Program-made: the position numbers and the translations under genes
The notes under the pieces: model-generated
Told to the model about the DNA's origin: nothing
What the model saw: the letters and a program-made list of their open reading frames with translations, nothing else
Databases searched by the model: none
Shown: in pieces, positions 17,160 through 37,899 of the stretch
How positions within the stretch are numbered: the first letter of the stretch is position 1
Layout of the letters: the number at the start of each line of letters is the position of its first letter
DNA from: a virus
Strand: one strand, 5' to 3'
Length of the DNA: 38,994 nucleotides
Virus record (IMG/VR): IMGVR_UViG_3300042922_001035
Location: 1-38,994 of that record

Positions 17160-17465
17160 TTACACTTCCTTCTTGATTTCTTTACGCAATAGTTGCGCGA
17201 TTACGAGGCCTGTACACTCAAAAAAATTGCCAAAGGATTCACTAATAAGGTTAAGGTCTTCGTGTTCCTCTCTTCTGAAAGAAGCAGGAATTTCACTCAC
17301 TGCTGTCTTGATGTAAACGGCGTAATTTCCTACTCTCGCCCAATTCTCATCTTCATATTTAACAGTTTGCCGTTCTTCAAGCTGCAACTTGAGCGCGGCA
17401 TTTTCTTTTTCCAAAAGCACAATGTGCTGTTCCGGGCTAAGCTTTGACTTGTCAATGAAGTCCAT
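17160..17465 (-). CDS. Small coiled-coil protein A
   Basis: The start at 17465 (MDFIDKSKLSPEQ) has GGGGG 8 nt upstream; longer readings overlap the membrane peptide gene upstream in another frame. The 101-residue protein has the segment HIVLLEKENAALKLQLEERQ at about residues 14-33, a leucine-zipper-like coil closely similar to proteins B (17683-18045) and C (18530-18808). The rest is ELARVGNYAVYIKT-like and an acidic C-terminal half that ends in RKEIKKEV. The function is unknown; it probably oligomerises. It is the second copy of a duplicated membrane peptide-coiled coil unit. Confidence 0.75.
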   Translation of the reverse strand: MDFIDKSKLSPEQHIVLLEKENAALKLQLEERQTVKYEDENWARVGNYAVYIKTAVSEIPASFRREEHEDLNLISESFGNFFECTGLVIAQLLRKEIKKEV

Positions 17466-17502
17466 AATATAATCCCCCTTATTCCTTAACGCATAAGCTA
17501 GG

Positions 17503-17661
17503 CTATTCCTTTTTAATAGTGACTTGAACTCCTTTAAGAGTGATGTGAATACCGTTGGCAACAGCTTTATTTCCAGCAATGAACCAGCGAACCAATGTAG
17601 CTAGTGCCACTATATGAATTATTAAAAGCAAAATCTTATTTACCATATCCAAAGGTTCCAC
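17503..17661 (-). CDS. Membrane microprotein, copy 2 (GTG start)
   Basis: This 52-residue gene is easily missed. It starts with GTG at 17659-17661, with GAGGTG about 6 nt upstream. The protein begins MEPLDMVNKILLLIIHIVAL and has one membrane helix at about residues 8-26, followed by RWFIAGNKAVANG and a short beta-like tail ending in VTIKKE. The first 11 residues are nearly identical to those of the 34-residue peptide at 18092-18196 (MEPLDVVNKIL), and the upstream DNA is also repeated (17641-17700 against 18176-18235). It lies between coiled-coil genes B and A on the same strand. A small membrane effector or adaptor is a reasonable guess; no family was recognised. Confidence 0.65.
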   Translation of the reverse strand: MEPLDMVNKILLLIIHIVALATLVRWFIAGNKAVANGIHITLKGVQVTIKKE

Positions 17662-17700
17662 GCATTTCACCTCACTAAGAGATTATTTTCCGTTCACTAT
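17641..17700. repeat. Imperfect direct repeat, copy 2 (of module at 18176-18235)
   Basis: About 47 of 60 positions match 18176-18235 in the same orientation. The repeat covers the start, the ribosome binding site and the upstream flank of the membrane microprotein gene. Together with the paired coiled-coil genes this shows that a two-gene unit was duplicated in tandem. Confidence 0.7.
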
Positions 17701-18045
17701 CTCATCCCATTTTTCAAAAGTCATTCCCTTAAAGAACTTTCCTATCTCAGTTTGGACTAACTCTTCAATGTGTTGCGGCCGGTCCTCAATTTGACGCTTG
17801 AGCGCGGCTGCTTCTTTTTCCATAATAGCAACTTGGGTTTCCATCACTTGCACAATATCCTTTTGGAATAATTCGAAGGCCCGTTGCAGATCCCCTCGCA
17901 ATGCAACATATGCCATTTCAAGATTTGAAATTCGCATATCAGAGCTTTGCCGCTCCTCAAGTTGCCGCTTGAGACCGGCATTTTCTTTTTCCAGAATAAT
18001 AATACGTGTCTCTGTATCAAGCTTTGAAATATCTCCAAAATGCAT
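17683..18045 (-). CDS. Small coiled-coil protein B
   Basis: This 120-residue protein has GGAGG 7 nt before the ATG. It begins MHFGDISKLDTETR and continues with RIIILEKENAGLKRQLEERQ (about 14-33), a coil shared with proteins A and C. A second coil (QVAIMEKEAAALKRQIEDRP) follows at about residues 73-92, so the coil unit is itself repeated within the protein. The C terminus (IEELVQTEIGKFFKGMTFEKW) is amphipathic. It lies downstream of the 34-residue membrane peptide. The function is unknown. It could pair with coiled coils A and C or with the membrane peptide. Confidence 0.75.
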   Translation of the reverse strand: MHFGDISKLDTETRIIILEKENAGLKRQLEERQSSDMRISNLEMAYVALRGDLQRAFELFQKDIVQVMETQVAIMEKEAAALKRQIEDRPQHIEELVQTEIGKFFKGMTFEKWDEIVNGK

Positions 18046-18091
18046 AGTAATTCCTCCTCATTATTTCAGTATCAAAATAGCAAAACCTAAA

Positions 18092-18196
18092 TTACCGCTT
18101 TCTGATAAACCCCCGGGCGATAATTACCATTGCTATTATGGCAGTTATACTCACTATTGAATTTAAAATTTTATTTACCACATCCAGGGGTTCCAT
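18092..18196 (-). CDS. Membrane microprotein, copy 1
   Basis: This 34-residue peptide starts at 18196 with GAGGT 7-8 nt upstream. The N terminus is MEPLDVVNKIL, then a single membrane helix (SIVSITAIIAMVIIA), then a short basic tail (RGFIRKR). A longer reading to 18385 on the same frame overlaps the plus-strand gene and lacks a ribosome binding site. The basic tail suggests that the N terminus faces outward or that the tail binds anionic lipid. It resembles type I toxin-sized peptides, but no antisense RNA was identified here. It is the ancestral or shorter copy of the 52-residue peptide at 17503-17661. Confidence 0.65.
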   Translation of the reverse strand: MEPLDVVNKILNSIVSITAIIAMVIIARGFIRKR

Positions 18197-18235
18197 ACTT
18201 TTTACCTCGCTAAGAGAGTATTTTCCGCTTGCAAT
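18176..18235. repeat. Imperfect direct repeat, copy 1
   Basis: Partner of 17641-17700, covering the start region of the 34-residue membrane peptide. See that entry for the comparison. Confidence 0.7.
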
Positions 18236-18257
18236 ATCCTTTCTTTTAAAGGATATT
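18233..18257. repeat. Perfect AT-rich inverted repeat upstream of box 2
   Basis: AATATCCTTT (18233-18242) pairs with AAAGGATATT (18248-18257) over a 5-nt loop. On the plus strand a TTT follows it, making it terminator-like. It ends 12 bp before the TGTCGAA box at 18269, so an operator role is also possible. Confidence 0.4.
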
Positions 18258-18268
18258 TTTGTAAAGGG

Positions 18269-18275
18269 TGTCGAA
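18269..18275 (+). promoter_or_regulatory. TGTCGAA box (Spo0A-box-like), copy 2
   Basis: TGTCGAA in the context GGGTGTCGAATAATTGG, 40 bp before the ATG of the plus-strand gene at 18309. Same orientation and similar distance as copies 1 and 3. Confidence 0.45.
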
Positions 18276-18308
18276 TAATTGGATGGGGCCCAGGCGGGAA
18301 GGAGTATC

Positions 18309-18533
18309 ATGAAATTTAAAGAGACACATCTTCCAATAACGTCCTCAGCTGATACAAGAAGAGAACGTATTAACCAAATACTCACCCCTATACAATCGTC
18401 ACTTTCAGAAAAAATGAACGCCGCTTTCTCTAGCGATGAAGAAAGGAAAGCGGCTCAAATCGCTATTACGGTCTGCCTTGAAGCGTTTCGCGAGTTCATG
18501 GAGTTTCGCATGAAACACGGCGAAAATTATTAA
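18309..18533 (+). CDS. Small plus-strand helical protein of unknown function
   Basis: The start at 18309 (MKFKETHLPITSS) has GGAAGGAG 4 nt upstream. The 74-residue product is predicted to be almost all helix after residue 15. It contains two amphipathic helices (RRERINQILTPIQSSLSEKM and DEERKAAQIAITVCLEAFRE) and ends in HGENY. There is no recognised family. Its stop overlaps the stop of the minus-strand coiled-coil gene C by 4 bp or less, so the two genes converge. This is the same geometry as the 16884/17160 and 18887/19111 pairs. Transcripts would be complementary at their 3' ends. Confidence 0.7.
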   Translation: MKFKETHLPITSSADTRRERINQILTPIQSSLSEKMNAAFSSDEERKAAQIAITVCLEAFREFMEFRMKHGENY

Positions 18534-18808
18534 TCTTCGTCTATGCTAATGCATTGAATTGCTCCGTTAGCCCTTAAAAAGACAATGTCCGTTATATCGC
18601 ATTTTTCATTATCTAAATTATTTTGCTGTGATCGAAACTGCTGTAAAATATTACGGATATCTTCGCAAGCTTGTTTAGAATTTATAGGCCCGGGCGCTTT
18701 TTCTTGTCGGTCTGTTTTTAGACCGGCTTTTTCTTTTTCCAATGCAGCAATACGCTGCTCCAGAGCTGCCAGGGTCTCCGGAAGCTTACCAAACTCTTCC
18801 CATGTCAT
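18530..18808 (-). CDS. Small coiled-coil protein C
   Basis: The start at 18808 (MTWEEFGKLPETL) has AGGAGG 8 nt upstream. This 92-residue protein carries EQRIAALEKEKAGLKTDRQE at about residues 18-37, related to the coils of proteins A and B. The C-terminal half has SKQACEDIRNILQQFRSQQN and an acidic end (SIDED). It is the most diverged of the three paralogues. It is not accompanied by a recognisable membrane peptide on its upstream side. The function is unknown. Confidence 0.7.
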   Translation of the reverse strand: MTWEEFGKLPETLAALEQRIAALEKEKAGLKTDRQEKAPGPINSKQACEDIRNILQQFRSQQNNLDNEKCDITDIVFLRANGAIQCISIDED

Positions 18809-18847
18809 AATCAATTCCTCCTTTGTTTACAGGAAACATCTTCCTAT

Positions 18848-29790: not shown

Positions 29791-30564
29791 TTACTCTCCT
29801 TTTCCAAAATAGAATTCCTGGCCCTTCTGCAGAGCCGGTGTCTGCTGGGCCGTAACTTGTTGCGCCAATTCTTTACCGAAAGTGCCGGCATCGCCAGCCT
29901 TACCATTAGTCCCTCCGCCACCGCCAGCACCTGGATTCTGCGGATTGAATACGAATTCGGGATTCGCCTCTAACCAACCCTTTACACCGGTTTTCACATC
30001 AATTTCCTCGCCATCTTCTTTGAGGTACACAAGACTGTCATCGTCATTGACCTTGACCCTATCGGATAGAATCTTGAGGAGTTGGTCAGGCTTAATCGCT
30101 TTATGCTCGGTAAGCGAGGCCAGCAGGGCGCGATTGCGCTCGCTAGTTTGGCGTTTTGACCGTTCCTCAGTGGCCGTTTTTTCAGATGCCACCTGAGCCT
30201 CAGTGGCTTTTTTCAGATCACGCTGCAGCTTGGCGATATCTTTCTGCAGCTGAGAGATCTCCGGAGCAGCCTTACCGCCATTTTTCAGAGCTTCCTCCTC
30301 TTTGGCTTTTAATTCGACCAGAGCAGTTTCCAGATCTTCCACGTCATCGGCGACACCGGTATGGTCATAGAATTTCTCCAAACGCTCGGTCGTCTTTTTG
30401 AGTTTTTCCTCGGTTTCCTTAAGTGTTTTGGTCAGTGTCTTAAACTGCGTGCCTTTCTGGGTTAATTCCGCTTCTTTAGCGGCAATGATAACTTTAAGCG
30501 CTTCGGAAAATTTGGAGCCTTCGGGGAGTTTGGCCAACGCGGCCAGTAGTTCTTCAAGTGTCAA
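29791..30564 (-). CDS. Scaffold protein (GP20-like), TTG start likely
   Basis: About 257 residues. AAGGAGG (30574-30580) lies 9 nt before the TTG at 30564 (MTLEELLAALAKLP) but directly touches the ATG at 30573, so the TTG is the better start. Residues 20-150 are a long acidic coiled coil. The C-terminal 60 residues are Gly/Asn-rich and flexible (PQNPGAGGGGGTNGKAGD), ending in a Gln-rich tail. This is the design of internal scaffold proteins, which bind the capsid subunit through their tail and leave after assembly. It lies directly before the decoration and capsid genes. Confidence 0.8.
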   Translation of the reverse strand: MTLEELLAALAKLPEGSKFSEALKVIIAAKEAELTQKGTQFKTLTKTLKETEEKLKKTTERLEKFYDHTGVADDVEDLETALVELKAKEEEALKNGGKAAPEISQLQKDIAKLQRDLKKATEAQVASEKTATEERSKRQTSERNRALLASLTEHKAIKPDQLLKILSDRVKVNDDDSLVYLKEDGEEIDVKTGVKGWLEANPEFVFNPQNPGAGGGGGTNGKAGDAGTFGKELAQQVTAQQTPALQKGQEFYFGKGE

Positions 30565-30591
30565 TTGAGTCATCCTCCTTATTTTTGAGCA

Positions 30592-30674: not shown

Positions 30675-30696
30675 AAAAACCGCCTGGTTGGCGGTT
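30675..30696 (-). terminator. Rho-independent terminator before the scaffold gene
   Basis: On the minus strand AACCGCC (30696-30690) pairs with GGCGGTT (30684-30678), loop of 5 nt, then TTTTTC. It follows the 121-residue gene directly and would separate packaging/portal genes from the capsid genes, perhaps partially. Confidence 0.75.
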
Positions 30697-30712: not shown

Positions 30713-31078
30713 TTAAGCTGTTAATGTGGCAGCCTGTTCATTGTCATTTCTTAATAATACCTGGTGATTATCCAGGTCTACAATCAGTTCGCCGGATACA
30801 ACCTTGTCGATATGCGCCCACCAATTACTAAATGGTTGCGAAAAATCCGCCTTGCTAAAATTCATAAACTCATTCATTTCCTGGTAAAAGCTTTGGGCAT
30901 TATCTAGCAAAGTCTTATCTGCCAAGTCTAACAGCCTTTTTTCCTCTTTTGATAGCGATGAATAATTTTGCTCCAAGGTATCCCTCATGGCAATAGTGTC
31001 CATAAGTTCAATGCCGGAAAACTCTATGTTCTCAACATCAAATCCATATCGTTTAATCAGTTCTGCATTAGTCAGCAT
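30713..31078 (-). CDS. Acidic protein, possible immunity partner of the PBECR domain
   Basis: A 121-residue acidic protein with no recognised domain (MLTNAELIKRYGFDVENIEF, then SLSKEEKRLLDLADKTLLDN, then a SQPFSNWWAHIDKVV stretch). GGAGGGAA lies before the ATG, and the start overlaps the end of the head-nuclease gene by 11 nt, so the two are translationally coupled. Net negative charge, small size and coupled position just after a gene with a C-terminal nuclease domain are the usual marks of immunity proteins. That role is inferred; a small head accessory protein is the alternative. A terminator follows 17 bp later, which makes the pair the end of one transcript. Confidence 0.6.
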   Translation of the reverse strand: MLTNAELIKRYGFDVENIEFSGIELMDTIAMRDTLEQNYSSLSKEEKRLLDLADKTLLDNAQSFYQEMNEFMNFSKADFSQPFSNWWAHIDKVVSGELIVDLDNHQVLLRNDNEQAATLTA

Positions 31079-32633
31079 TGCCCTTCCCTCCCATTTTGGT
31101 ATACCCTTCTTTAATACTTAAATGTTCGTCATAAGGCTGTTGGTCAATAATATAGGCCGTTTCCATTACTCCATTTTCGCCGATCATTACCATCCATTTG
31201 GATTTCCTATGCGCATATACAAAAAAATTTTGTACAAATTCATCCTTGTGGTATAAATACGTGTCAACATCTTTACTATTTAATATTTCTAATATTTTGC
31301 TGTTATAATCTGCAGCTGTCCAACCTTGAGGTATATGCCCTCGGCTTTTGCGTTTTTCAACATGCTTCTCAAGCTTCCCCGACTTCCATTCAGGAGCATT
31401 TTCCAGAACTTGTTTCCGTATTTGCTCCGCTTTATCAGCCATGTTTTTCCTTATTATACCATTATCTTTACCTTGTTGCAAATCCGATTTAAGAAGCTCT
31501 AGAACCTTAGTTCGGGGCTTCGGGTCCTTATGTCCCTGCCAATGCCGCAGCCGCTTCTGCCACTGGCCATCCTGCGCAAAAGCCGTCACATTATCAATCC
31601 CAAGCATCTCTCTGAGTGCTCTGGCATCCTGAGCCTTCAGCCACGCCGCTCCTGCCTCCGGATCAAACTTGCCAGGTGTCGCCTTTCCTTTATAAATCAC
31701 AACCAGATTACAGGTACAAAACGGATGCGCCGGATGTGGCGGCATTTTGTCTTTGGGATAATTCCCTGCGCCCATACCATAATGGTCCACCTTAGCATGA
31801 AAATCACAGACATCCACCCGGGGATGCCGGCTCGACAGGCGCCAGCCAAAACCAATAATTAAAGAATCATCATAGTGTTTGGCGTAAAACATGTCCGACC
31901 ATGCCCGGGCGGACTCGGTAATGGCGACCCGGTCCGCATAGTACCGTGCCTTTTCCTGCACCGCGACCCAGGCCGCTTTCTCCATAGCTTTTACATTTAG
32001 TTTTTGCGCTGTATCCACCAACTGCTGATAGGCCACCTTCAGCGGCTTGTCCCGCTGTTCCATCTTCTTCAGTTGCTGTTCCGCCTTGCGCACGGCCAGG
32101 TTAAACTCGCGGGTGATACGTGGGTCGCCGCCGGCAGCCGAACGCGCTGCCGCAACCAGGCGCTTTAAATATTGCGGCAGGTCAGCACCATTTATAACCT
32201 TCTTGCCGCTGTTGTACCCATCATACAGATCCATAGACATGTCCTTGACGGTTTTCCCTTTACGCATGGCTGCTGATACAGTGTCAATGATCGCCTGGCG
32301 CATTTCCTGAGAGGTCCCATGCAACCGCTTGGAGAGCTTCATCTTGTCCGGAGCCCAGGAGTCACTCAGTAAATGCTCCCTGACGGCAGTTTTCATTTCC
32401 ATGGACGGGATTTTTATGCCATACCCCAGCAAAGCTGCCTTGCTGATGGTGTCAATGAGTTGATCAAAGTATTGGCCGGTAAAACCGGTATTGGCCAGAG
32501 CTGTATCAATCGCTTTGGCTAGTGGTATGCCTGCGTTAATCTGGCGTATAATCTCCTCAACCAGTTTGTCACCCAATTCGCTGCCCTGGCCCATATGCTG
32601 CCGTAATAAGGCAAGTAGCTCCTCTCGGTTCAT
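31068..32633 (-). CDS. Mu-F-like minor head protein fused to a PBECR-like nuclease
   Basis: A 521-residue protein. The N-terminal 230 residues are helical. Residues about 235-320 form the Mu F/SPP1 gp7 head morphogenesis domain, with AITESARAW, HPRVDVCDFHA and PHPAHPFCTC (Cys/His residues that probably bind metal). Residues about 405-505 form a separate basic domain with KHVEKRKSRGHI, YNSKILEIL, FVQNFFVYAHRKSKWMVMIG and MTETAY-like ending (METAYII). The H-x(2)-K-R ... G-H ... W ... T-A-Y pattern fits the phage PBECR (barnase/EndoU/colicin E5-D/RelE-type) RNase group described as C-terminal fusions to phage head proteins. ATGA overlaps the portal stop. The domain may be packaged and injected. 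Confidence 0.8.
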   Translation of the reverse strand: MNREELLALLRQHMGQGSELGDKLVEEIIRQINAGIPLAKAIDTALANTGFTGQYFDQLIDTISKAALLGYGIKIPSMEMKTAVREHLLSDSWAPDKMKLSKRLHGTSQEMRQAIIDTVSAAMRKGKTVKDMSMDLYDGYNSGKKVINGADLPQYLKRLVAAARSAAGGDPRITREFNLAVRKAEQQLKKMEQRDKPLKVAYQQLVDTAQKLNVKAMEKAAWVAVQEKARYYADRVAITESARAWSDMFYAKHYDDSLIIGFGWRLSSRHPRVDVCDFHAKVDHYGMGAGNYPKDKMPPHPAHPFCTCNLVVIYKGKATPGKFDPEAGAAWLKAQDARALREMLGIDNVTAFAQDGQWQKRLRHWQGHKDPKPRTKVLELLKSDLQQGKDNGIIRKNMADKAEQIRKQVLENAPEWKSGKLEKHVEKRKSRGHIPQGWTAADYNSKILEILNSKDVDTYLYHKDEFVQNFFVYAHRKSKWMVMIGENGVMETAYIIDQQPYDEHLSIKEGYTKMGGKGNAD

Positions 32634-34117
32634 TCAGCCCCACTTTCAAAGCCGGTAGCCTGCTGCACCCCTTCGCCCTGTTGCTCAATATCCTCCATAA
32701 CAGCGTCAAAGCGTTCCTCAGGAAGATCGGCCAGGTAAATCTCCGCAGCCTTTTTCTTAACCTCTTTCTGAAACAAGCCACCAATATGCAGATCCAGGGC
32801 CTTGGTTACATCATCCAGCGCTTCAGTGACATCCACGATTCCAAAATCATCAGGATAGACACAGGAATAGTCAATTTTGGAGTTAGTCCATTTCTCGAAC
32901 AAGAAAGCCATCTTCATTTCTGCTTCTTGGCAATTTTCGGCCATGTCACTCAAGGATTGGTTTGTATTCTCAAAGTCCCACTGCTTGGCAACACCGGATG
33001 TTTTTTGTTGTACACCAACCACGCTGCTTAATGTGGCCAGTCGGTAAATTTCTTCAACCAGGCGGCTAAGTTCATTTTGAAGCAAAACAGCCTGTTCGGC
33101 AGGCGGCGTTATAAAGAGCGGCGGGCGGCCAGTACCGTCAAAATTCAGCGCATTATCGGTGCCGGTCACCACTCCATCCATCTCCGGCGACTCAACAAGC
33201 TCGCTGACCGGCAGACATAGAATGGAAAACGCCTGGCTGCGCAAGAGTTCCCGCAGCTCGGAACACAGGTTAAAGATCGTCAAATTAATTCTTGCGATTG
33301 CGAGCATATCTCCTGTTGGCAGCATATCCCCATCATCGGCATCAGTACCAAACAAAGGAATGACCGGCACAACCCCCAGGTTATGCTCCTGCTCATCGGT
33401 TTTCCCTTCCCTTTCCCGCTTCCAGCCTGTTTGGGTCCATGTCCAGCGGGTTATGATATTGGATGCTGCATTGCCACTGAAGCGGCGGGAATAGGTTTCG
33501 TAAGTGATGGAGGTGAGAACGCCGTCCTCATTGCACTCATAGTGTTTTACCTGCTTTGGAAACACTAGATAGGCATAGGGAAAGGCTCGTTTCTCTAAAG
33601 CAGAGGCTTTGGTTACCGGCTGTTCATTAACATTATCCACCACGATAAAACAGACACCATGCAGCTTTGCTTTCTTTAATGTCTTTTTCATGAAGCGCTT
33701 AATATTGGTGCCTTTACGGTCCACATCGGCTTGAAACTTTGAAAACATTTGGCTTTCTGCATCTTTACCTTCCCAGTCACGCGTTGCCGGCTTACGAAAC
33801 ACAGGATTCACTAGGGAATTGACGACGGTTTTCACATAGTTAGCATAATAGCTTAGCGCTTTTCGCCTGATGTATTTATCCAGCGTTTCCCGTACATGCG
33901 GGACTAGATACTCGCCTGTTAAAAACCCTCCTTTACCAGCATAAGCATCTTCAAGTAACTGATAGTTGTCAGTAATAGGCACACAAGGTAAAACCATTGG
34001 TTTTTCTCTTACCTTCGGCGGCATCGCAGGTTTGGGGATCGGAGCGTTATCCTCATCATCGGGAAGCAAATCAACGTCTTCCTCGGGTACCACAAAATCA
34101 TCTTCAAAATCGACCAT
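32630..34117 (-). CDS. Portal protein, DUF4055-like
   Basis: A 495-residue protein starting at 34117 (MVDFEDDFVVPEEDVDLLPD), with AGAGGTG 6 nt upstream; the GTG at 34126 is unlikely. It lies between the large terminase and minor head genes. Motifs include YLVPHVRETLDKYIRRKALS and YYANYVKTVVNSLVNPVF near the N terminus and KRFMKKTLKKAKLHGVCFIVVDN in the body, a pattern of DUF4055 portals. The C-terminal part has a coil (VKKKAAEIYLADLPEERF). It forms the dodecameric ring for DNA entry. Confidence 0.85.
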   Translation of the reverse strand: MVDFEDDFVVPEEDVDLLPDDEDNAPIPKPAMPPKVREKPMVLPCVPITDNYQLLEDAYAGKGGFLTGEYLVPHVRETLDKYIRRKALSYYANYVKTVVNSLVNPVFRKPATRDWEGKDAESQMFSKFQADVDRKGTNIKRFMKKTLKKAKLHGVCFIVVDNVNEQPVTKASALEKRAFPYAYLVFPKQVKHYECNEDGVLTSITYETYSRRFSGNAASNIITRWTWTQTGWKREREGKTDEQEHNLGVVPVIPLFGTDADDGDMLPTGDMLAIARINLTIFNLCSELRELLRSQAFSILCLPVSELVESPEMDGVVTGTDNALNFDGTGRPPLFITPPAEQAVLLQNELSRLVEEIYRLATLSSVVGVQQKTSGVAKQWDFENTNQSLSDMAENCQEAEMKMAFLFEKWTNSKIDYSCVYPDDFGIVDVTEALDDVTKALDLHIGGLFQKEVKKKAAEIYLADLPEERFDAVMEDIEQQGEGVQQATGFESGAE

Positions 34118-34130
34118 CACTATCACCTCT

Positions 34131-36800: not shown

Positions 36801-37054
36801 CTCCTACGCCTCCCGATTATTTGCCGTAGCCTGTCTTTGCTGATATTTCCGTCATGTGCCTTTCGGTGACATATGAAACACAACAAAATTAGGTTATCGT
36901 CCGAATCCGGGCCACCGCTCCCAACAGTCTTGACATGATGCTTCTCAAGCAAATAGGAGCTGCCGCATACCTCGCAGTATCCGATAGCCCCTATTCTTTC
37001 TTTGCTCTTTTTATCTACTATTCGCGGTGTTTTAGGTATTGGCGTTACCATCAT
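36797..37054 (-). CDS. Small HNH endonuclease
   Basis: An 85-residue protein with Cys-x-x-Cys (CEVCG, about 27-30), then LEKHHVKTVGSGGPDSDDNL (about 36-55), and CFICHRKAHDG (about 59-69). This is the zinc-ribbon HNH fold with the H-H ... N ... H-x(3)-H layout. Phages of the HK97 type need a small HNH protein next to terminase for cutting and packaging; the location before terS agrees. The start overlaps the upstream stop (ATGA). It could also serve as a generic nickase. Confidence 0.85.
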   Translation of the reverse strand: MMVTPIPKTPRIVDKKSKERIGAIGYCEVCGSSYLLEKHHVKTVGSGGPDSDDNLILLCFICHRKAHDGNISKDRLRQIIGRRRR

Positions 37055-37899
37055 AAGTGATTTACCCGATCATATAACTCTGCCTGCGGTTTTGTTGGCT
37101 TAAATAACTTATCTTTATCGCAATTTCTTTGCAATCTATAAAATAATGTGCTCATTGAAATTCCTGCATTTTCAGCTGCTTCAGCCAAAGTAATATTTCC
37201 CCATGGTGTTTCAATTACACGGTTATTAGTTTTATTTCTACTCTGCTCTTTTGTCGACGCCCACCTACAGTTAGACGGTTCGTAATTTCCATTTACGTCA
37301 ATCCTATCCAGAGTAAGACCTTTTTTAAATGTTGGACCCATATCTTTTAAAAATGCTTGGAAATCGTTTATCCATGACTCACAGATTTGTATTCCTCTTG
37401 CTCCATAATGTTCAAAAGAAGAAGCGTTTTTATTGTAACACCTTGATTTCATATTTCCCCAAATTCTATATAGCCTGGAATTTGACATTCCATGTATTGC
37501 TGTGCTAGCTCCTTGTTGAGCCGCTACTTCTTTATGAAAACAGCCACATGATTTTATGCTTTGATTTCTAAGACTCGTTGACGGCACACTGGTTTCATTA
37601 CCACATTCGCACAAACACCGCCAGATAATAATGCCGTTTTTTGTTTTCCCTGTAGGTTCAATAGCGGTTAATCTGTTAAACTTTAAGCCGGCAATACTAG
37701 TAAACCTGTGAATGTCTTTATTATAACAGCCGCATGATCTTGTTTTTCCCAACTTTAACGCAGAACCAATAACTGCAACTTCATTGCCACAATCGCACTT
37801 GCATAACCACTTAAATCGTTTGTTTTTCCCAAAAACAACCTTCTTAATAACTACTAACCTATTAAACCTCTGACCTGATAAATCAATAAACTTACCCAT
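37051..37899 (-). CDS. Homing-endonuclease-like protein (double zinc ribbon, HNH/AP2-type, HTH)
   Basis: A 282-residue protein. It has two tandem zinc ribbons at about 8-60 and 68-125 (each with W-x-C-x-C-x-C-G ... S-C-G-C). Residues about 135-220 contain RLYRIWGNMKSRCYN, HYGARGIQICESWINDF, LTLDRIDVNGNYEPSNCRWA and a T-K-E-Q-S-R-N run, a pattern of HNH/AP2 phage endonucleases. The C terminus holds an HTH (ITLAEAAENAGISMSTLFYR), like the NUMOD modules. GAGGAGG lies 9 nt before the ATG. It sits between packaging genes and behind a structured leader, so it is likely a mobile insertion. Confidence 0.75.
   Translation of the reverse strand: MGKFIDLSGQRFNRLVVIKKVVFGKNKRFKWLCKCDCGNEVAVIGSALKLGKTRSCGCYNKDIHRFTSIAGLKFNRLTAIEPTGKTKNGIIIWRCLCECGNETSVPSTSLRNQSIKSCGCFHKEVAAQQGASTAIHGMSNSRLYRIWGNMKSRCYNKNASSFEHYGARGIQICESWINDFQAFLKDMGPTFKKGLTLDRIDVNGNYEPSNCRWASTKEQSRNKTNNRVIETPWGNITLAEAAENAGISMSTLFYRLQRNCDKDKLFKPTKPQAELYDRVNHL

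Follow-up and report, generated by a model that had tools for sequence, protein, structure and literature searches.

MuF polymorphic toxins with their immunity genes were described by Jamet et al. 2017 (PMC5576092), and MuF phage-capsid-like systems, colicin D-type toxins included, had been listed in 2012 by Zhang et al. (PMC3482391). Fusions of PBECR domains to MuF proteins were reported by Iyer et al. 2017 (PMC5512222). Most of what is known about MuF toxins comes from sequence, and in the literature we searched antibacterial testing is found only for the Apk2 and Bxa types. Both Bxa (PMC11699363), an ADP-ribosyltransferase, and Apk2 (PMC12226406), a (p)ppApp synthetase, proved toxic in bacteria, and each is neutralised by two immunity proteins from adjacent genes. 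A literature search for MuF proteins with colicin D returned, besides general surveys, only one unrelated structure-prediction paper.

Here we analyse a stretch of viral DNA of 38,994 nucleotides, referred to below as the window, in which a head protein gene overlaps a small acidic gene. We consider it likely that the phage is temperate and that the pair encodes a polymorphic toxin of the MuF type, namely a head-borne RNase of the colicin D type with an overlapping cognate immunity gene. Pairs of this general type are already described, as the MuF polymorphic toxins and their immunity genes (PMC5576092). The locus shares with these systems a head gene next to the portal gene, a variable C-terminal toxin domain and a small downstream ORF of under 150 aa, as well as relatives borne on prophages and alternative toxin domains on related head proteins. 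It differs from them in that Pfam, NCBIfam and PADLOC contain no profile for the toxin and immunity families, neither the toxin domain nor the partner giving a match there above curated thresholds (PHROGs likewise gave nothing), and in that the head belongs to PHROG 1657. Both the toxin subfamily and the immunity family are therefore undescribed in the profile libraries searched. The features of the locus are given below, with related loci designated by L numbers.

32630..34126, minus strand: portal protein gene, directly upstream (PHROG 145 portal, E 4e-58)
31068-32633, minus strand: head protein gene, 521 aa (ORF list)
31599..32633, minus strand: head (MuF-type) domain, residues 1-345, with the Cys/His motif DVCDF...HPFCTC (PHROG 1657)
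31452..31598, minus strand: linker, residues 346-394; the exchanged cassette starts inside it, at about residue 375 (nucleotide identity to L048)
31068..31451, minus strand: predicted colicin D-like BECR RNase (toxin) domain, residues 395-521 (AlphaFold2, Foldseek, VIA-align, PDB sequence-profile search)
31362..31364, minus strand: codon of His424, predicted catalytic His, equivalent to colicin D H611 (invariance in aligned homologues; spacing)
31158..31160, minus strand: codon of Thr492, predicted active-site Ser/Thr, equivalent to colicin D S677 (HMMER alignment; Thr or Ser in all homologues)
31068..31078, minus strand: overlap of the toxin and partner genes, 11 nt, indicating translational coupling; also in L048, L049/L056, L070 and L071
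30713..31078, minus strand: partner gene (predicted immunity), 121 aa, acidic, mostly helical (family in 16/16 loci; AlphaFold2)
30678..30696, minus strand: intrinsic-terminator-like hairpin AACCGCC-AACCA-GGCGGTT, then a T-run; within the exchanged cassette (sequence)
29791..30573, minus strand: scaffold protein gene, the next one past the cassette (PHROG 206 head scaffolding, E 5e-13)

A sequence-only reading of this DNA had proposed a head protein extended by a nuclease-toxin domain and coupled to an acidic partner. The 521-aa and 121-aa ORFs with their 11-nt overlap are both present, the partner is acidic as claimed (pI 4.3, charge about -12), and the terminator that had been placed after the partner gene is found as a hairpin with a T-run at 30696-30678 on the minus strand, just beyond the partner stop codon. 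The extension past the head domain had been put at about 100 residues and called basic. It is nearer 150-175 residues, of which the linker takes up about 50 and the domain about 127, and the domain is only mildly basic (pI 8.1 for residues 405-521).

The head part matches PHROG 1657, head morphogenesis, over residues 206-312 (E 7e-23, PHROG profile search). The same domain gave no match in Pfam to PF04233 (Phage_Mu_F) or PF06152 (Phage_min_cap2), and comparison with one Phage_min_cap2 protein gave a weak profile match at the same Cys/His motif (E 0.001). With the portal gene directly upstream and the scaffold gene downstream, the head gene sits in the head and packaging module, next after the portal. 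A profile of the head protein matched 41 viral loci. Using tblastn we also matched the Nitratiruptor phages NrS-1/2/3, the alignment reaching into the C-terminal domain, and in both NrS-1 and NrS-3 a small gene overlaps the end of the head gene. Such a small downstream ORF accompanies 25 of 27 long head proteins as against 2 of 11 short ones (p 1.6e-5). One close relative, L049, is embedded in a bacterial genome, on a contig of 5.2 Mb, and is thus a prophage. As for the window, its record is a viral contig of 39 kb, and no integrase was recognised among the ORFs read in it.

Related head proteins carry other C-terminal domains or none. A Lucifera butyrica prophage, L046, found by scanning one genome, represents the empty site, with the same head module and a 407-aa head protein that has neither extension nor partner and is separated from the scaffold gene by about 100 nt. 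Between the window and L004 and L005 the head is approximately 57-88% identical per 60-residue segment and the C-terminal parts are unrelated. In L010 the head protein carries an ADP-ribosyltransferase domain (E 4e-11) and is accompanied by a different small gene, and in L025 it carries a JAB-like domain at E 0.003, which is below the cut-off.

Several of these loci have features of their own. The L004 head protein (L004:3001-4747) is about 66% identical to that of the window and has a different small C-terminal domain (EHSLNRIVGR...HFNEKGEIVTVTP); the downstream gene differs too, encoding an acidic 90-aa protein, and the two are possibly another BECR-type toxin pair. By eye the C-terminal domain of L005 (L005:2530-4514), which is followed by an 80-aa gene, resembles a RelA/SpoT-type alarmone synthetase (Apk2-like); it gave no Pfam match at E 0.1. 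The head gene of L040 (L040:3001-5277, and also the truncated L038) is seemingly split by an intein exactly at the Cys of HPxC (HPHC-YDKDTEVYTNEGW ... FSGN-CYC), and the L040 head gene that bears the apparent intein also encodes the toxin domain studied here.

To the toxin domain two kinds of method were applied. AlphaFold2, using nine sequences, gave a model with pLDDT 90.4 and pTM 0.84, in which helices are followed by four strands. Searching this model against the PDB with Foldseek, we found that the top six chains were all colicin D or CdiA-CT RNases (prob 0.90-1.00, E from 0.007 upward), led by 1tfk, 1v74, 1tfo and 5znm (colicin D) and 8ey4 (CdiA-CT O32:H37). The first 12 rows from VIA-align were all BECR RNase toxins with Z 4.8-8.1, the first unrelated row having Z 4.8, and comprised CdiA-CT O32:H37 (Z 8.1), colicin D (Z 7.4-8.0), two other CDI toxins and colicin E5; the tool itself describes a Z near 8 as borderline. 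Independently of the AlphaFold2 model, a family profile of 9 toxins searched against 177,635 PDB sequences placed colicin D in positions 1-3, as did a profile of 10 toxins, at E of about 0.08-0.1, where a value of 0.08 is not significant alone. The E-value by itself would be insufficient, and we propose a colicin D-like fold because the model-based and sequence-profile methods agree. That the C-terminal domain is a predicted nuclease of the colicin D/BECR fold is well supported. Searches of each protein against the PDB with phmmer returned chance matches.

The active site points in the same direction. The motif noted earlier in the C-terminal domain is present (H424-V-E-K-R...G432-H433...W480...E491-T492-A493-Y494), and we do not attribute it to chance, since H424, R428, Y443 and W480 are conserved across the toxin homologues and the downstream gene accompanies them in 16/16 loci. 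H424 is invariant and position 492 is Thr or Ser. In colicin D the general base is H611, the His of KYKHAGDF (PMC9990079). The sequence KYK-H611-AGDF aligns in spacing with EK-H424, the ungapped distance of 19 residues from H424 to Y443 equals that from H611 to F630, and S677 and W679 fall on T492 and Y494. The window domain thus resembles the tRNase bacteriocin colicin D (Tox-ColD; 1v74, 1tfk, 5znm) and CdiA-CT O32:H37 (8ey4) in its BECR fold, the His in the N-terminal helix, the Ser/Thr in the last core strand (strand 4) and the adjacent immunity gene. Unlike these toxins its predicted carrier is a phage head rather than a colicin or CdiA, and the Hxx[ED] signature of Tox-ColD (PMC3482391) is not kept, all homologues having H-x-x-[KR]-R instead. 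With this replacement the substrate may differ from that of colicin D. CdiA-CT O32:H37 requires EF-Tu, which supports a core tryptophan beside the catalytic His (PMC12585627). It is possible, as a speculation by analogy, that the invariant W480 might play a similar part.

In its layout the domain is also like the PBECR domains (Iyer et al. 2017; PBECR3, PF18812), but it falls below the Pfam threshold. The NrS-1 domain was the only relative to score against PBECR3, at 14 bits compared to a cut-off of 30, and the window domain gave no match. A profile comparison of the toxin with 12 PBECR3 domains from other genomes gave a weak match (E 0.001) over 37 columns around the His helix, and PBECR3 as a formal assignment was left unproven. 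Of the original suggestion of a PBECR nuclease, the nuclease part is well supported, with the colicin D/BECR fold reached by two methods and matching positions of the catalytic His and Ser/Thr, and the PBECR part is borne out in layout but not by the Pfam thresholds. The AlphaFold comparison proposed at the time did reveal similarity to nucleases, namely colicin D and related BECR RNase toxins. The domain is predicted to act like colicin D yet is not classed as Tox-ColD. We therefore describe it as a colicin D-like BECR domain whose subfamily is unregistered, since it lacks Hxx[ED] and stays below the PBECR3 threshold.

The 121-aa partner is tied closely to this toxin domain. A partner homologue is the gene that follows at all 16 loci where a toxin homologue has sequence downstream of it, the one in L058 being cut by the contig end after 41 residues, and the overlaps or gaps between the two genes mostly lie between -62 and +15 nt. 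Toxin and partner are correlated in their pairwise distances (r 0.905, 15 pairs). In a smaller set that includes the head domains, r is 0.934 for toxin and partner, 0.525 for toxin and head and 0.494 for partner and head. Across 380 genomes of one class, strong partner matches occur only in the same three genomes as strong toxin matches, and adjacent to them; these three genomes were in the partner profile, so that the informative part is that no other genomes appear. The Campylobacterota-type phage partners were first placed by position alone. We count them as the same family because partner profiles of the Bacillota and Campylobacterota types, built separately, matched each other (hhalign probability 87%, E 4.5e-6).

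AlphaFold2 predicts the partner to be mostly helical (pLDDT 85, pTM 0.79), and the model gave no fold match in the PDB; 14-3-3 chains at E of about 1 were taken as a helical-bundle artefact. With hhalign no similarity was found between the partner and ImmD, the immunity protein of colicin D, and the partner was rejected as an ImmD relative. The proposal that the neighbouring gene protects the producing cell is strengthened by linkage, co-variation and the cassette transfer described below, and because of these a protective (immunity) role for the partner, through probable neutralisation of the toxin, is well supported. Many partners (window 30713-31078 and homologues) end in -LTA, -RTA, -HAA, -EAA, -LVA or -EVV, which could be a degradation signal.

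When the window is compared with L048, the nucleotide identity of the head domain is 72.5% and that of the gene after the cassette 73.2%, but the toxin reaches 91.2% and the partner 93.2%. Identity climbs from about 73% to about 90% near 31500 and drops just past the terminator at about 30678. L058 and L059 showed a similar step, with 66% in the head and 88.5% in the toxin. Judged by these identities, toxin, partner and terminator move between phages as one cassette, and the pair shows a toxin and its presumed antidote being exchanged as a unit.

The same pair was found on other carriers. In viral contigs no match was obtained when the toxin, the partner or the head protein served as a single-sequence query, and alignment queries alone worked. 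Over the 380 genomes, from the class of L046's genome, the toxin profile gave three strong matches, L048, L049 and L050, and trimmed toxin profiles located L055, L056, L058 and L059 in viral contigs, the L056 proteins being those of L049. A plasmid set yielded L069 and a phylum sample L070 and L071. In the last two the carrier of the pair is a Phage_min_cap2 protein (E 4e-36 and 2e-32). In L069, a Rossellomorea plasmid, the pair stands alone without a head protein, with a 128-aa toxin gene that overlaps the partner by 4 nt. The weak profile matches L051, L052, L063, L064-L067, L072 and L073 were judged chance or unrelated. In L069 (L069:3571-4728) the toxin gene begins 2 nt after another small gene, perhaps in one operon. 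L050 (L050:920-1648) is a remnant, with a truncated toxin and an intact partner next to ORFs that by eye are transposase-like, and without a head gene.

Sequence comparison supplies the fold match, the conserved catalytic positions, the strict pairing, the co-variation and the cassette exchange; the RNase activity, the RNA target, neutralisation, packaging and injection are what we infer. The N-terminal part would be a minor head protein bound near the portal, and the C-terminal domain a metal-independent RNase of the BECR fold and colicin D type. His424 would bring about general acid-base cleavage, with Thr492 and conserved basic residues binding the RNA, most likely a tRNA. In cells that produce the phage or carry the prophage the 121-aa protein would bind and block the nuclease. 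The head domain would bring a few copies of the toxin into the virion, and these would pass into the next cell together with the DNA and act on cells without the immunity gene. A neutralised toxin is a reasonable expectation because Bxa and Apk2 are both toxic and neutralised by adjacent genes. Like those two, the window protein is a MuF head fusion with a predicted C-terminal enzyme and a predicted immunity gene beside it; their toxicity has been shown experimentally, whereas that of the window toxin, a predicted RNase, is itself a prediction. The pair makes delivery directly testable, as it offers a small predicted nuclease whose active site is probably located, together with a candidate antidote, closely related head modules with and without the cassette and a stand-alone version.

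A fuller version of this proposal we advance tentatively, giving it somewhat less than an even chance. The toxin would be a tRNase of a new BECR subfamily and the partner would belong to a new helical immunity family, the two circulating with their terminator as a self-contained cassette among distant phage head proteins and plasmid gene pairs. Virions would inject the tRNase, harming non-lysogenic competitors and sparing immune lysogens.

It is conceivable, if rather doubtful, that the RNase is an early effector carried in the virion and not a weapon against competitors. It would cut host mRNA, tRNA or defence RNA for host takeover or to steer lysis and lysogeny, and the partner would limit damage during assembly and in lysogens. 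Such roles were proposed for PBECR and MuF effectors by Iyer et al. 2017 and Jamet et al. 2017 (PMC5512222, PMC5576092), and since few MuF copies are thought to be present per head (PMC12226406) a moderate effect is plausible. However, the frequent exchange of toxin with partner, and the unrelated domains on related head proteins, look like the diversification of a toxin-immunity arms race. We think it unlikely that the pair is a toxin-antitoxin module acting inside the lysogen, in prophage maintenance or in abortive infection against other phages, with the head fusion incidental. The stand-alone plasmid version would fit such a module, as would the -TA, -AA and -VA endings of several partners if these are a degradation signal, but nearly all copies are fusions, and the late-gene neighbours in nearly every phage locus read imply that the toxin is made in the lytic phase. 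A structural head domain with a capsid accessory protein or chaperone as its neighbour, which the position in the head gene cluster and the lack of a curated nuclease family match might suggest, is very improbable and already disfavoured, given near relatives that lack extension and partner (L046) or have a different domain and small gene (L004, L010), the conserved catalytic residues and the colicin D fold.

Two further observations were made elsewhere in the window. At 17160-18814 adjacent small ORFs have a common coiled-coil motif (LEKENAALKLQLEERQ, LEKENAGLKRQLEERQ, LEKEKAGLKTDRQEK), as if duplicated. At 37051-37899, upstream of the terminase genes, an ORF of 282 aa combines repeated Cys motifs with a C-terminal half that is HNH/AP2-like (YGARGIQICESW...DRIDVNGNYEPSNCRW), and by eye appears to be a phage homing-type endonuclease.
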